NCBI GenBank assembly: GCA_040386775.1
Contig: JAZKEU010000017.1
Span: 246,316 to 310,315 of the forward strand
Direction of reading: 5' to 3'
Length of the DNA stretch: 64,000 bases
Source: Bdellovibrionota bacterium
GTDB taxonomy: Bacteria > Bdellovibrionota > Bdellovibrionia > Bdellovibrionales > JAEYZS01
Both the position numbers and the translations under genes were made by a program. Shown here piece by piece: positions 2,928 to 56,917 of this stretch; the first letter of the stretch is position 1; each line of letters starts with the position of its first letter. A model generated the notes under the pieces. It did no database searches. It saw only the letters and a list, made by a program, of their open reading frames with translations, and was not told where the DNA came from.

Positions 2928-3935
2928 CTACAAACCTTTTGCTTTCATAAATAACGCTAGATCAACCATTCTGTGCGAGAAGCCCATCTCGTTGTCGTAC
3001 CAAGAAAGAACTTTGATCATGTTTCCTTCGATCACCATCGTTTGATCCAAATCAATGATGGAGCTAAAAGGGGAGCCGATAAAATCTGTACTCACGAGAG
3101 GATCTTTTTCGATTTTCATAATGCCCAACATTTCTTTTTGCGAAGCTTTTGTTAGTGCATCGTTAACTGATTCGATTGTAACTTGTTTTTTTGTAATACC
3201 AACGAAATCAACCAGTGATACATCTGGCGTCGGCACTCGGATACTCACGCCGTCGATTTTTCCTTTTAGATCCGGAAGAACTTCGCCGACGGCAATAGCT
3301 GCCCCTGTTGTTGTCGGAATCATGGAGAGAGCGGCGGCTCTAGCGCGTCTGAGATCTTTGTGACCTGCATCAAGTAATCTTTGGTCGCTAGTGTACGAGT
3401 GAACGGTGGTCATCATACCTTTTTCGATCGTAAAGTTCTCGTGAAGAACCTTAACAAGAGGAGCAAGGCAGTTTGTGGTGCAAGAAGCATTGGAAACGAT
3501 CTTATGTTTACCTGCATCGTATTGCGTGTGGTTCACGCCAAATACCGCGGTGAAATCGACGCCTTCAGCAGGAGCTGAGACAAGAACTCTTTTTACGGAA
3601 CCTTTAATGTGTTTTTGGAAATCAGCAGCTGATTTGAAAGCGCCTGTACATTCGAACACGATATCCACTTCCCATTTGTCCCAAGGGATATCCGCCGGAT
3701 TTTTGGAGCTTGAAACAGGAATGCTCTTCCCATTAACGAGTAACCCGGCAGCGTTATGTCCAACTTCGAAAGGAGCCATGCGGTGAGTACTGTCGTATTT
3801 TAAAAGATGCGCGCTCGTCGCGATATCTGAAGTGTCGTTGATTCCAACAAAATCCACTTTGTCATAACCGGCTCTAAAAACCATACGACCAATACGACCA
3901 AAACCATTAATTCCAACTCTCAATTTGCGTGACAT
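2928..3935 (-). CDS. gap: Glyceraldehyde-3-phosphate dehydrogenase
   Basis: Oxidises glyceraldehyde 3-phosphate to 1,3-bisphosphoglycerate with NAD(P). The N-terminal dinucleotide fold VGINGFGRIGRMVFRA and the active-site motif SNASCTTNCLAPL (catalytic Cys near residue 153) are intact, as is the C-terminal SWYDNEMGFSHRMVD. Length 335 is standard. It is the first gene of the gap-pgk-tpiA operon. Its ribosome-binding site (AGGAGA) and ATG lie within a perfect 13-bp inverted repeat (3932-3964), so translation could be controlled by RNA structure. Confidence 0.98.
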   Translation of the reverse strand: MSRKLRVGINGFGRIGRMVFRAGYDKVDFVGINDTSDIATSAHLLKYDSTHRMAPFEVGHNAAGLLVNGKSIPVSSSKNPADIPWDKWEVDIVFECTGAFKSAADFQKHIKGSVKRVLVSAPAEGVDFTAVFGVNHTQYDAGKHKIVSNASCTTNCLAPLVKVLHENFTIEKGMMTTVHSYTSDQRLLDAGHKDLRRARAAALSMIPTTTGAAIAVGEVLPDLKGKIDGVSIRVPTPDVSLVDFVGITKKQVTIESVNDALTKASQKEMLGIMKIEKDPLVSTDFIGSPFSSIIDLDQTMVIEGNMIKVLSWYDNEMGFSHRMVDLALFMKAKGL

Positions 3936-7792: not shown

Positions 7793-8481
7793 ACGTGCAA
7801 TCTGTAGCCAACACCACGGATTGTTTCGATTGTTTTTCCGTAGGTATTGAGTTTTTTACGAATTGCACAGATGTGAACATCAATCGTTCTTTCTGTTACT
7901 GAATTAGTGCCATTGATGCGTTGGATAAGTGATTCTCTAGAAAGAGGTTTTCCGTCAGCCTTTAAAAGCTCTTTTAGAATGTTGAATTCCATTAAAGTGA
8001 TTTCTAGATTATTGCCAAGGATTTTTACTTTGTAAGAATCAAAATCGACTTCAAGATCTCCTTTCACAAGAATGTTGCGACTAGAAATTGAGGAAGCTGA
8101 GGTCTTTTCTTGGTAACGATTTAAAACTGCTTTTACTCTTCTCAAAAGAACATTCACAGAAAAAGGTTTTTCGATATAGTCGTCGGCACCCATGTCAAAA
8201 GCATTAACGATATTGTCTTCGCTCGAAATCGCAGTTAAGAATACCACCGGTAGATCGGCATATTTTGCATCACCTCGGAGGCGAGATAGAACTTGAGAGC
8301 CCTGTATATCGGGTAGATTGTGGTCAAGGATCATAAGATTAGGCCTAAAGCTTTCTAATACTTCAAACGCTCTTTTGCCGTCGTTCACAGAAATGGTTTT
8401 GTAGCCGTTTTCTTCAAATATACTTGTCAGAAAATCTCTGAGCTCTGACTCATCTTCAACTAGTAGTATGCTATTGTTCAC
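7789..8481 (-). CDS. OmpR/PhoB-type response regulator (orphan)
   Basis: A 230-residue two-domain regulator. The receiver domain (about 1-120) has the acidic pair VEDE, the phospho-acceptor Asp in LMILDHNLPD (near 53), the switch Thr in FLTAISS, and the Lys in YIEKPFSV. The C-terminal winged-helix domain (about 135-230) ends with TIDVHICAIRKKL and IRGVGYRLHV. No histidine kinase gene adjoins it, so its partner lies elsewhere. Palindromic CTTAAT-type sequences just upstream (8534-8560) are candidate binding sites for autoregulation. Confidence 0.95.
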   Translation of the reverse strand: MNNSILLVEDESELRDFLTSIFEENGYKTISVNDGKRAFEVLESFRPNLMILDHNLPDIQGSQVLSRLRGDAKYADLPVVFLTAISSEDNIVNAFDMGADDYIEKPFSVNVLLRRVKAVLNRYQEKTSASSISSRNILVKGDLEVDFDSYKVKILGNNLEITLMEFNILKELLKADGKPLSRESLIQRINGTNSVTERTIDVHICAIRKKLNTYGKTIETIRGVGYRLHV

Positions 8482-12084: not shown

Positions 12085-12699
12085 GTGAAAACTAACATTC
12101 TACATTCTATGGCGAGAATAATAGTTTTGCTTTTTTGCACGTCACTACTGATTCCTTTTCAGAATTGTTCTGTTTATAAATCCGAAGGCAGAAAAGATTT
12201 TTCCAGCAGTTTAGATCAAGCTGCAGACAAAGGTTGTTATCCTTACATTGATACAAATTTAGCTATGGAATTTATGGATATCCTCGATGACTCTTTGAAT
12301 GTTTATAAAAATAAAGTCGAGGGCGAAGATGCGCACTCCTGTGATTTTAGAGCAGCAGGGCATTTACTTAACCATATCAATTGCAAGATTTCTCAAGGAA
12401 ATGGTGAACACGCACTCTTATTGAAACAAAATGGTGCCCTTGCTTTTGAAGATACGCAGGCCATTTGGACAGCGCCTGCAGCGGGAACTAGGCCGGGATT
12501 TGTAGGTAACAATCATGGTGGTTACATCACTTTAGATGCAGATGGATTGTACACCATTAAATATCTCGCTCTAGATGATAATGAATTAAAAGGTGTCGGT
12601 TGTGCAGTGAGACTCACAATTCCTGATTACAACACAAACGCCATCGCCACCCAAAACACGCTCTCAAAAATAACTTTAGAAATGGCGATGAAAAGGTGA
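12085..12699 (+). CDS. Lipoprotein, function unknown
   Basis: A GTG start at 12085 is preceded by a strong ribosome-binding site (GAGGAAATAATC) and yields a typical lipoprotein signal, ending IPFQNC with Cys as the lipidation site; an upstream ATG at 12052 has no such site. Mature protein of about 170 residues has several Cys (KGCYP, HSCDFR, INCKI, GVGCAV) and no recognised domain. The QNC lipobox is shared with the cysteine-repeat lipoprotein at 14247. The last codons (AMKR and stop) are supplied by a palindromic repeat shared with the convergent M48 gene. Confidence 0.7.
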   Translation: MKTNILHSMARIIVLLFCTSLLIPFQNCSVYKSEGRKDFSSSLDQAADKGCYPYIDTNLAMEFMDILDDSLNVYKNKVEGEDAHSCDFRAAGHLLNHINCKISQGNGEHALLLKQNGALAFEDTQAIWTAPAAGTRPGFVGNNHGGYITLDADGLYTIKYLALDDNELKGVGCAVRLTIPDYNTNAIATQNTLSKITLEMAMKR

Positions 12700-12772
12700 G
12701 CCGCACCTTTTCCAAAGTTTCGCGTTATTTGACGCAGATCTGTGGAAAAGGTGCGGCTCACCTTTTCATCGC
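12685..12772. repeat. Palindromic element, copy 1 (between convergent genes)
   Basis: An 88-base near-perfect palindrome. The outer arm contains AAAGGTGAGCCGCACCTTT and its reverse complement; the middle contains GCGTTATTTGACGC. Each outer arm is itself a hairpin (AAAGGTG with CACCTTT), so the element can fold as three hairpins or one long stem. In this copy symmetry extends outwards through GCGATG, so both convergent genes end in the same residues AMKR and use the TGA in the repeat. Confidence 0.8.
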
Positions 12773-17051: not shown

Positions 17052-17129
17052 TAAAAGGTGAGCCGCACCTTTTCCAAAGTCTTGCGTCATGTGACGCAAA
17101 TCTTTAGAAAAGGTGCGGCTCACCTTTTA
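17052..17129. repeat. Palindromic element, copy 2 (between ssb and gspN)
   Basis: Same structure as copy 1: left arm AAAGGTGAGCCGCACCTTT, middle TTGCGTCATGTGACGCAA (a perfect inner palindrome), right arm reverse complement of the left. Its right edge supplies the TAA stop of gspN (17127-17129). Confidence 0.8.
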
Positions 17130-18101
17130 GAAAGAGTTGGCTGGGGTCATGCGGGGAGGGCCGTAAAAATTGGCTCCGGAGACTTTAAAGATGTATTCAC
17201 GGCCTTGTGGGGTTTCAGATTTTTTATAAGAGTCTAAAAACCCTAGGAAAAGTCCGGCTTTTGCTTGGTAGCTGGGTTTTGTTTTGATCTGTATTGTCAA
17301 ATCAAAGGCCCCGGGATTTACGTTGACTTGGCCACCTGAACTTTGAAAGTTCAAACTCATGGTTCCGCGAACCTGGGCATAGAGTTCATCGGAAGGACTT
17401 CCGATTTGGGCCTTTTCGATATTCAATTCACCTTTATTCATCTGACCTTTTAAAATCAATTCTTGAAGCTTTGTATCGGGGAGGGCCAAGGGACCAATCG
17501 GAGTGGGCACACTTGCTGCCGTAATATTTATTCTTGTGGCTTTTAAATCCACCTGTGCATCTGGCTGCTCAGAAAAAGAAGGGTCGATCACGGCATCGGA
17601 ATCTAAATTCATTTTTCCTTCCAGAGTCATCGGAAGAGCAAGAAGTTGAGAGAGTTTGGACAACTCAATTCCTTCGGCATCAATAGTAATATTTTGCTTT
17701 AACGCTCCCGAAGTGGCTTTAGAGCCGCCGCGAGTAGTGAGATCTAAATCTCCATCAAAAATTCCTTTAGCACTCAAAGAAACTCCAGGCTTAAATGACA
17801 ATAGCCCTGCAATCGAAGGAGAAACCATCACGCTATCCGCGGAGAGAGGAGGGAATTGAATTCCTTGCGCCTTCACATCGGTCAATTCCAATCCTGGACT
17901 TGGTAACAGTGAAAAGTGCAGTTCCTTGAACTTTAAAAAGACTTGATTCTGGGTGAGCTTTGCAATTTGAGTGGTCACATATGAGCCAAGGTCACTGAAC
18001 GGAAAGAGTAGAAATAAAAAAACCACATACGCAAGAAATCCTAAGAAAACTTTCTTTTTATTGTTCTTTAAAAAAGTAAGAAACATGCGCAAGTATTTCA
18101 T
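17127..18101 (-). CDS. gspN: Type II secretion system protein GspN
   Basis: 324 residues with one N-terminal membrane helix (about 16-35, KKVFLGFLAYVVFLFLLFPF) and a periplasmic beta-rich region of AsmA/GspN type (GLELTDVKAQGIQFPPLSAD, GPLALPDTKLQELILKG). It is the last gene of the gsp cluster, overlapping gspM by 1 base. GspN is an accessory, not universal, component of these machines. The C-terminus ends just inside palindromic element copy 2. Confidence 0.8.
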   Translation of the reverse strand: MKYLRMFLTFLKNNKKKVFLGFLAYVVFLFLLFPFSDLGSYVTTQIAKLTQNQVFLKFKELHFSLLPSPGLELTDVKAQGIQFPPLSADSVMVSPSIAGLLSFKPGVSLSAKGIFDGDLDLTTRGGSKATSGALKQNITIDAEGIELSKLSQLLALPMTLEGKMNLDSDAVIDPSFSEQPDAQVDLKATRINITAASVPTPIGPLALPDTKLQELILKGQMNKGELNIEKAQIGSPSDELYAQVRGTMSLNFQSSGGQVNVNPGAFDLTIQIKTKPSYQAKAGLFLGFLDSYKKSETPQGREYIFKVSGANFYGPPRMTPANSF

Positions 18102-28194: not shown

Positions 28195-28268
28195 AAAGGT
28201 GAGCCGCACCTTTTCCAAAGGTTTGCGTCATTTGACGCGGATCTGAGCAAAAGGTGCGGCTCACCTTT
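28195..28268. repeat. Palindromic element, copy 3 (fills the gspD-gspE gap)
   Basis: Left arm AAAGGTGAGCCGCACCTTT, middle GCGTCATTTGACGC, right arm the exact reverse complement. It occupies almost the whole space between the gspD stop (28269-28271) and the gspE ribosome-binding site, so any transcript through the cluster carries this structure. Confidence 0.8.
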
Positions 28269-30659
28269 TTATTCTTCGATGAATTCGTCTTCCTGTTCTT
28301 TGAGTCTATTCGTTTTTGTCGAAGGTTTCAACTTTGGACGCATATTTTCTGTAAATGCTCCGTGACGATCTTTTCCACCGAAGTTTTCTTTAATGTTGCG
28401 TACTCTATCATCCAATTTTCGAGAGAGTAGGCGACCAGAGTCTTCTGGGTTTCTGATTACTTTTGGCGTGATGAATACGATGAGATTTTGTTTTTCAACT
28501 TTATTTTCAGTCGACTTGAATAGCCATCCTAGAACTGGAATATCTCCCAATAGGGGAACCTTAATTACAGTTTCAGTTTGCGCATCTCTCATCAATCCCC
28601 CGAGGACTGCCGTGTCACCATCTCTCATTACGATATTAGTTTCAATAGCTCTGTCGGAAGTGGTTCTTGAAATTTTTCCCAATTCAGATCCATCAGTAGG
28701 GTTGGCATCAACTTGCTTGATGGTTTGCTTGATATTTAGTCTGACAGTTTCACTGCTCGGAGAAATATGAGGTTTAATCACAAGTTTTATCGTCGCTTTA
28801 ACTCTTTCTACGTTAGGTGATGTTGCTCCACCCGTTCCTGTAGGAACAGCAGTCACTGCAATTGGAACCTCTTGACCCACTTCCACCGTTGCTTCTTCGT
28901 TATCCATAGCAATAATTTGCGGAGTTGCAAGGACATCAGACTTTGTATTTTGCTTTAGTAAACTTAAGAAGCCCATCAAGCTTTTTACGTTTACAGTTTG
29001 ACCACCAATTTTAATTGGAACAGTTTCTCCGCTACCAAATCCTAAGATCGCGCCTTCACCACCAATGGCGGCAAGGCTGGCAATACTCGAGTGACCACCG
29101 AATCCTGCTCTTCCTAAGCCCTCAGTTCCTTTTTCAAATTTGTAATAAGAAATACCAAACTTAGTACTATCGTTACTTACCATCTCCATGATGATCGCTT
29201 CCACATATACTTGATCTCTTGGAATATCGATTTTATTCAGCAACGCTAGAACCGCTTGGTAATCCTGCTTGCTACCTACGATAATCAAAGAGTTCGTGTC
29301 TTTATCCGCAGAGATCTTAACGTCTGCCCCGAATAATCCCGATGAAGAAGAAGATCCGCTTTGAACGCCGCCCATAGGATTTCCAAAACCATCATTGAAT
29401 ACCGGAGGAGGCGGGAAGTTTTGCGCTCCTGCTTGTCCCTTTTGTTCGTCCTTCAATTGTTTTGCAATGCCATTGATGATGTCCGATATTTTTTCAGCTT
29501 CACCATGTTTTACATAATACACATAAGCGCCACCAGAACTTTCAGAAAGTCTAAAGTCCAAAGTCGCCACTAATTTTCTAATTTTATCGATACCAGATTT
29601 ATTGCCCACTACGATTACAGAGTTTGTTCTGTCATCTGGAATCACTGTGGAGAAAGCACTTCCGCCAGTGGATTGCGATTGGCCACCAGGTCTGAATCTT
29701 GGAATTCCAGAGGAGAATGCTCCGGCAGAAGATTTCTTTTGGCCTTTGTTAATGATTTGGTCGATGAGGTCTGCAATGTCTTTTGCTTTTGCATTTTTGA
29801 TATTGATCACGGCCAATTGTTCGTCAAATCCAGCGATATCCAATTGTCCCACGATTTTGATTAATCTTTGAACACTAGAAGCTTGATCCGAAACGATAAG
29901 AGAGTTGGTAGGTTCATAAATATCGATGTTACCATTTTTAGAAACGAGTTTTGTCGCAAACTTATTCATTTCTGCAGCGGGAACATATTTTAAGTGAATG
30001 ATTCTGGTGATCATCTGATCTGTGTCTGGAGTGTAAGCGCCAGAAAAAATTTCTAAGTTGTCTCTTTGTGCATCTCTCACCGGAAGAATTTTTAAGAATT
30101 TTCCAGAAGGCACAATCGAGAATCCTCTGATCGCAAGAGCACTCAAGAACACTTTGTAAGCTTCTGCCACAGTGATTTGGGTTGGCGCCATGATGGTGAT
30201 TTTTCCACTCACGTTGGGATCCACGATAAAATTTTTGCCTGTCAATTCCGAAATGGCTTTGATCACATCGGCGATATCCGCATTTGGGAAATCAAAACTA
30301 TCGATAAGATCGGGATAGTTTTCATTTGTGATGTCCGCATCCGTGGCCTGCGAAAGAGGAGGAGTTTTTCTTTTCTTTGTTCCACTAAAGGCAGGATTTG
30401 CTGGACCTGAAGATGTTGGCGCAAAACTATTGTTCGGTGTTGGTGGCGGTGGAGGAGTATTTTGTTGTCCACCAAAGACATCATCGCCACCCGGAGAGTC
30501 ACCCATATCCATATCAGGAGATTCCAAAAAATCATTTTCTTGCAATATATCTTCTTGAGCATGCACATTTCCAGTGAATGTCACGGGTGTGATCAGCGTA
30601 ATTGCAACTGTGATCCACAATAATTTTAATTTTGCATTTGAGCGGCTCTTACTTATCAT
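28269..30659 (-). CDS. gspD: Type II secretion outer-membrane secretin GspD
   Basis: 796 residues. Signal peptide (residues about 1-35, ending VHAQ), a Pro/Ser/Asn-rich linker (about 55-95), N0 domain (SFDFPNADIADVIKAISELT), N1-N3 repeats (IIHLKYVPAAEMNKFATKLV; VINIKNAKAKDIADLIDQII; YYVKHGEAEKISDIINGIAK), and the secretin pore (VEVGQEVPIAVTAV; TAVLGGLMRDAQTE; PLLGDIPVLGWLF). It forms the outer-membrane channel. The low-complexity insertions in N1-N3 loops and the linker are longer than in enterobacteria. The C-terminus is charged (KEQEDEFIEE). Confidence 0.95.
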   Translation of the reverse strand: MISKSRSNAKLKLLWITVAITLITPVTFTGNVHAQEDILQENDFLESPDMDMGDSPGGDDVFGGQQNTPPPPPTPNNSFAPTSSGPANPAFSGTKKRKTPPLSQATDADITNENYPDLIDSFDFPNADIADVIKAISELTGKNFIVDPNVSGKITIMAPTQITVAEAYKVFLSALAIRGFSIVPSGKFLKILPVRDAQRDNLEIFSGAYTPDTDQMITRIIHLKYVPAAEMNKFATKLVSKNGNIDIYEPTNSLIVSDQASSVQRLIKIVGQLDIAGFDEQLAVINIKNAKAKDIADLIDQIINKGQKKSSAGAFSSGIPRFRPGGQSQSTGGSAFSTVIPDDRTNSVIVVGNKSGIDKIRKLVATLDFRLSESSGGAYVYYVKHGEAEKISDIINGIAKQLKDEQKGQAGAQNFPPPPVFNDGFGNPMGGVQSGSSSSSGLFGADVKISADKDTNSLIIVGSKQDYQAVLALLNKIDIPRDQVYVEAIIMEMVSNDSTKFGISYYKFEKGTEGLGRAGFGGHSSIASLAAIGGEGAILGFGSGETVPIKIGGQTVNVKSLMGFLSLLKQNTKSDVLATPQIIAMDNEEATVEVGQEVPIAVTAVPTGTGGATSPNVERVKATIKLVIKPHISPSSETVRLNIKQTIKQVDANPTDGSELGKISRTTSDRAIETNIVMRDGDTAVLGGLMRDAQTETVIKVPLLGDIPVLGWLFKSTENKVEKQNLIVFITPKVIRNPEDSGRLLSRKLDDRVRNIKENFGGKDRHGAFTENMRPKLKPSTKTNRLKEQEDEFIEE

Positions 30660-56848: not shown

Positions 56849-56908
56849 TGACGCAAAGCAAAGGTGAGCCGCACCTTTTCCAAAACTTTGCGTCAAATGA
56901 CACAAATC
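56849..56908. repeat. Palindromic element, copy 4, rearranged
   Basis: Contains AAAGGTGAGCCGCACCTTT at 56860-56878 but the matching right arm is missing. Instead TGACGCAAAG (56849-56858) precedes it and CTTTGCGTCA (56886-56895) follows, a perfect 10-bp inverted repeat around the module. It then continues AATGACACAAATC as in the other copies. So the order here is middle-arm-middle rather than arm-middle-arm. Confidence 0.7.
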
Positions 56909-56917
56909 TGGGATTTT

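Follow-up and report, generated by a model that had tools for sequence, protein, structure and literature searches.

Repeat copies in the analyzed window

The 64-kb stretch of DNA analyzed here (the window) contains at positions 17054-17127 a full inverted dimer, similar to a REPIN, in which two 36-bp units face inwards, as established by motif search, unit mapping and folding. According to unit mapping and per-position conservation, the first unit (17054-17089, plus strand) consists of the hairpin AAAGGTG-AGCCG-CACCTTT, a spacer, and the inner tag GCGTCA. The inverted unit occupies 17092-17127 on the minus strand; the A at the outer edge of this unit is the last letter of the TAA stop codon in the minus-strand gene at 17127-18101. 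Another full dimer (12692-12765) lies between convergent genes, both of which end in ...KR-stop on the element's own AAAGGTGA, and one more (28195-28268) directly adjoins the stop codon at which a secretin gene on the minus strand (28269-30659) ends. The original prediction listed four copies in the window, and all of them are present, these three as exact dimers. The fourth copy was predicted to start at 56849; it starts at 56860 and is a truncated dimer (56860-56910, plus strand), comprising an intact unit (56860-56895) and a remnant of the second half, TGACACAAATCTG (56898-56910), with the right hairpin lost. The core of the repeat, AAAGGTGAGCCGCACC, occurs 14 times in the window with at most 3 mismatches, compared to 0.27 occurrences expected from shuffles (2 in the largest shuffle). 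A dimer of a separate repeat family (AAAAGGCGCTTAGTCGCTTTTGGCGAC...) at 24447-24519 matches the ends of a RAYT from contig C10 (see below). No strand is assigned to full dimers.

In single-stranded DNA, a single long stem is the preferred structure of the segment 17052-17129 (-37 kcal/mol, z -13.6), while the hairpin of an isolated arm or unit has 7 bp and a loop of 5 nt (-5.5 kcal/mol, DNA folding). Hence, both alternative folds proposed initially are feasible, the long stem being much stronger than the multi-hairpin form. The common orientation of the copies, also proposed, carries little meaning, as the dimer is nearly symmetric and its two half types occur in either order genome-wide.

Structure and size of the family

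The genome comprises 2.86 Mb in 26 contigs, and copies were counted by genome searches and in retrieved stretches. Its RAYT relatives, together with the size and spread of the set of relatives searched, place the organism near Bdellovibrionales. The expectation of further copies outside the window was borne out: the 36-bp unit is present in 57 copies, forming 17 intact dimers and 23 other elements (18 single units, the remainder being truncated dimers, a duplicate, or copies cut by contig ends). The unit consists of AAAGGTGAGCCGCACCTTTT, followed by a variable spacer and GCGTCA; a full copy comprises two inward-facing units separated by 2-5 bp, the dimer length being 74-77 bp. The outer 19-bp arms are exact in 51 of the 57 units. 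The conservation profile has two peaks, with 98-100% in hairpin positions 5-19, mostly 45-89% in positions 21-30, and 79-100% in the GCGTCA tag, which would be the pattern expected from an enzyme reading both the hairpin and the tag.

Two single units, C18:144382 and C18:147693 (genome G000, the one studied here), are followed by near-identical sequences, the second at the contig end, which points to a local duplication. Five contigs (C9, C13, C18, C21 and C22) start or finish in or near copies.

As a short (20-40 bp) extragenic palindrome present in many copies, often as inverted pairs, the repeat has the features by which REPs and REPINs are recognized. The 36-bp consensus has no GTAG/GTRG at the hairpin foot, and thus the repeat is not a canonical GTAG REP. 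The GGGGWSAS motif, which is found in a subset of published TIRs and is not required, is also absent from the consensus.

Position relative to stop codons

The intergenic location of the copies, noted initially, is correct; yet in most cases the copy overlaps with the stop codon of an adjacent gene. A gene end faces the element within 400 bp in 31 of 40 cases, and in 26 of these 31 the stop codon is either provided by the element or immediately next to it, compared to approximately 4.8% expected for random intergenic positions (P ~5e-30); the gene ends come from a simple codon-usage caller, so that individual cases may be off, while the overall pattern is strong. At six gene ends, the encoded protein finishes in ...KR-stop (or ...ER-stop) on AAAGGTGA of the element. 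Stop codons are often provided by GTAG REPs as well (PMC3733652), and the placement observed here is a stronger form of this habit.

Single units and dimers

Spacers and tags are more uniform in single units than in dimer halves, with the mean identity of 0.887 and 0.736, respectively (0 of 2000 permutations). The same holds for the main half type taken alone (0.942 for singles, 0.792 for dimer halves; 2 of 2000 permutations). Hence, doublets are not more conserved than singlets, contrary to what would be expected of REPINs. A trace of a second half was found at one of the 19 single sites, the other 18 having no residual. The single unit may itself be the spreading form, or the pairs may be older.

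The inner halves of dimers show no covariation (79 mismatches, 77.1 in shuffled pairs, P=0.73), and, with no compensatory changes between the two halves, there is no sign that the long stem is maintained for its own sake. A conserved RNA structure was considered and rejected on this ground, together with an Rfam search of the window that yielded no match. An obligatory left/right heterodimer, formed by joined left and right ends of the RAYT unit, was rejected too, as 10 of the 17 dimers are heterodimers, with 8.5 expected (P=0.40).

A RAYT gene bracketed by two units

A search of the genome with the PF01797 profile yielded seven matches, four of them above the family cut-off. The original prediction saw no transposase, which is true for the window, but not for the genome: a RAYT gene encoding an IS200-like HuH enzyme of 222 aa (C16:73519-74187, minus strand) is located on contig C16 exactly between two inward-facing units starting at 73521 and 74309. 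The bracketed element (G000:C16:73521-74309) is 789 bp long. On the 5' side of the gene, the spacer of the unit has diverged and the tag reads CAGTCA. Further units lie just outside the bracketed gene (positions 3726 and 7970-8006 of locus L040).

The C16 protein passes the PF01797 cut-off (28 bits, the cut-off being 23); its score against the NCBIfam model REP_Tyr_transpos (NF047646) is 48 bits, below the equivalog cut-off of 80. The profile built from its relatives matches the structure of E. coli TnpA-REP (4ER8) with E=2.4e-13. HxH in positions 61-63 and Tyr in position 120 are invariant across 23 homologues, the HuH-to-Tyr distance being approximately 58 residues. Judging by its sequence, the protein is a divergent RAYT and a member of the wider family.

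Three pairs of enzymes and repeats

Two more RAYTs of the same genome are bracketed by inverted ends of different types, forming units of 789 bp (contig C12) and 791 bp (contig C10). Each of the three end types is matched by a separate family of dispersed copies, with 57 units for C16, 26 places for C12, and 8 places for C10, the ends of the genes themselves included; the C12 family comprises, in particular, a dimer at C18:98501-98579. The hairpin differs between the three families, while an inner GCGTCA-like tag is common to all of them. Thus, there is one enzyme per repeat family, that is, three enzyme-repeat pairs in one genome.

One more family of the same genome, AAAGGTGCCCTGCACCTTTATGTGTCGCAATTGCGTTAT, has about 8 copies in the retrieved stretches, all outside the window (L074, L075, L076, L042, L046, L049, L077, L079), several of them beside copies of the C12 family. 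Shared features are the outer AAAGGTG and the inner GCGTTA; no matching RAYT was found, and the family is perhaps an orphan. Two Y1-type genes, L036 (G000:C8:188376) and L038 (G000:C1:148130), are alike at the N-terminus and have no flanking inverted repeats, possibly representing a separate subclass.

Distribution among relatives and insertion sites

A search of 60 relatives for the C16-type repeat yielded nothing except one weak match (82% over 44 nt), located at G001:C109:33716-33786 in a dimer with another type of hairpin, and an exact 26-mer of the repeat has no occurrence in other species in the GTDB genome collection. Hence, the miniature family is restricted to this genome among the genomes searched, and copies confined to conserved loci in relatives, which could have pointed to a fixed structure, were not observed. 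From the REP- or MITE-like nature suggested by the original prediction, the REP-like part is retained, given the 57 units, the matched RAYT, and the lack of confinement to fixed loci in relatives.

The arrangement of a RAYT gene between inverted ends is widespread. Among 70 Bdellovibrionota RAYT loci with enough flanking sequence, 63 have inverted ends at the gene borders that score above all 125 control windows. In some relatives (for example, G015, G055, G001, G002, G058) the hairpins of the RAYT ends recur elsewhere in the genome, in up to tens of copies, reversed-pattern controls being near zero. Identity of the RAYT ends is the reason for equating G001 and G002 with MAGs KLAP26 and KLAP141. 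The tag GMRTY is found 25-46 nt from the outer end at 58 of 126 RAYT ends, compared to 97 of 630 inner control windows. The similarity of the ends rises with the similarity of the RAYTs (Mantel rho 0.13, 3 of 2000 permutations): RAYTs that are more than 50% identical have similar ends, while below 50% identity the correlation is weak. None of the 33 RAYT pairs from within one genome is near-identical (maximum 68% identity), so that the whole RAYT unit is not multiplying at present. In G020, G037, G043 and G049 (a genus represented by many complete genomes, probably Bdellovibrio), the hairpin AAGGTGCCTGCTTCTTTTTT occurs in about 30-45 places per genome, apparently representing an unlabelled repeat family.

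Filled and empty junctions were compared for two of the RAYT units; the comparison is at the level of genes rather than base-exact, and the relatives are from outside the genus. In two complete genomes of the order, the gap between msbA and a sigma-54 activator gene is 148-212 bp and holds no RAYT; in the genome studied here, this gap measures 897 bp and contains the 789-bp C16 unit. Similarly, four relatives, including two from the same family, have ftsW next to murG, while here the 791-bp C10 unit (L034, G000:C10:70673-73924) separates the two genes, ftsW now terminating on a stop codon from this element. As judged from this comparison, the C16 and C10 units are insertions at the msbA-activator and ftsW-murG junctions, respectively. 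Dimers show no target-site duplication of 2-12 bp beyond that in shuffled flanks, as expected of single-strand transposition of the IS200 type.

Proposed origin of the repeats and alternative explanations

The repeats are very probably a miniature, non-autonomous form of a RAYT element, its gene-bearing form being the 789-bp C16 unit. The anatomy of the elements and the analogy to E. coli TnpA-REP and IS608 lead us to infer that the enzyme would recognize two features of single-stranded DNA, the GCGTCA tag and the hairpin, whose AGCCG loop is invariant, and would cut beside the unit using the HuH-tyrosine site. The cut strand would then be rejoined elsewhere without target duplication. Both single units and inverted dimers could spread in this way, and the copies sit at sites where they would do little harm, namely, at stop codons.

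Among the alternatives, the copies might be regulatory elements of the host, bidirectional terminators or stabilizers of mRNA 3' ends, selected at gene ends, mobility being only their origin. The contact with stop codons in 26 of the 31 elements facing a gene end, the stable folding of dimers as RNA (approximately -53 to -56 kcal/mol), and the near-invariance of the outer arms are all consistent with such a role. However, the relatives lack the family, and its exact 26-mer is absent from the GTDB collection, which would not be expected of a fixed terminator. Incoming transcripts would meet just four U after a stem of 7-8 bp; none but the outward-facing arms are flagged by the terminator scan, and the number of terminator-like sites across the region is close to that in shuffled sequence (19 and 13.6 +/- 4.8, respectively). 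Given also that the inner halves of dimers do not covary and that the matched RAYT would have no explanation, this alternative is improbable. As the primary identity of the element, a terminator is not supported by the terminator scan, the signal of which is weak.

It is still less plausible that the family has been spread by another RAYT and that copies have been inserted into the flanks of the C16 gene merely by chance. The extra units beside this gene in locus L040 indeed suggest that the spot attracts copies. However, the two other bracketed RAYTs carry different ends with families of their own, and the inner copies at the borders of the C16 gene face inwards, like the inverted ends at the 63 RAYT loci described above.

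Finally, given their inverted ends, length of 74-77 bp and dispersed copies, the dimers might be taken for MITEs that are bounded by 19-bp terminal inverted repeats and depend on a classical DDE transposase. This is scarcely credible, since target-site duplications are lacking, single units with no residual second half are common, and the gene bracketed by the ends encodes a HuH RAYT rather than a DDE enzyme.

Comparison with known systems

The miniature, RAYT-derived repeats described here belong to a known kind of element, the closest published one being the TIRtron/REPtron (Di Nocera 2013, PMC3733652). By its anatomy, the system is best classified as a TIRtron-type RAYT element with a miniature family, probably REP-RAYT-like in its working. 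As in TIRtrons (TIRYTs), a RAYT-like HuH-Y1 gene is bracketed by inverted repeats rather than by GTAG REPs, and single and dimeric copies are dispersed in the genome; moreover, some published TIRs are self-complementary and form moderate families of single and dimeric copies (PMC3733652). Unlike the many published TIRs with GGGGWSAS, later assigned mainly to TnpA-Y1 subclass 2.1 (PMC6006769), the ends here have AGGTRCC-like hairpins and the GCGTCA-like inner tag.

The REPINs of Pseudomonas fluorescens SBW25 (Bertels and Rainey 2011, PMC3116915) are similar in being inverted pairs of short palindromes, non-autonomous, extragenic, and matched by a RAYT. However, singlets there are more diverse than doublets and are interpreted as decayed remnants, while here single units are the more uniform ones, and the GTAG tag is absent.

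The E. coli TnpA-REP REPtron (PMC8266576; 4ER8) has a homologous enzyme and repeat copies flanking the gene, but E. coli REPs combine 5' GTAG with a bulged stem (PMC8266576), while the stem here is perfect and has no GTAG. The enzymes differ in the motif IWQPR of the E. coli protein, which is VYGGR in the C16 RAYT clade; the W-Q residues, conserved in GTAG-associated subclasses, are not kept in this clade.

TnpA-Y1 subclass 2.6, or group 5 of RAYTs according to Bertels (PMC6006769), also has atypical non-GTAG flanking structures with copies elsewhere in the genome. However, it is found mostly in Bacteroidetes and has the median HuH-to-Tyr distance of 82 residues; the distance of approximately 58 residues in the C16 protein argues against this assignment. 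CGTC-tagged REPs (PMC3733652) resemble our repeats in having the CGTC motif at one end of the unit and in the frequent formation of dimers, but their tag is at the foot of an 8-9 bp stem, with a short CCA-like tail opposite, and they have no associated transposase, while here approximately 12 nt separate CGTC from the stem and there is an associated RAYT.

Bdellovibrio is not named in the main text of PMC3733652 or PMC6006769, and we found no published description of such an element in Bdellovibrio, this absence being weak evidence.

Implications for RAYTs of Bdellovibrionota

We tentatively suggest that Bdellovibrionota possess a distinct branch of RAYTs, in which the AGGTRCC-type hairpin and the GCGTCA-like inner tag replace GTAG, the RAYT is inserted as a unit of approximately 0.8 kb, and single ends behave as independent units of approximately 36 bp, preferentially at stop codons; this generalization is possible, though doubtful at present.

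These observations touch upon two open questions, namely, how REPs move and whether REP transposases are domesticated; the RAYT units sit in otherwise conserved gene pairs. Three RAYT-repeat pairs with clearly different ends in one genome, and a clade with dozens of matched pairs, make enzyme-repeat specificity testable by swapping. In two respects, the strict placement at stop codons and the uniformity of single units, the family departs from the models developed for Pseudomonas and E. coli, and both departures can be tested. Moreover, the link to RAYTs accounts for a class of unlabelled palindromes in Bdellovibrio-type genomes.
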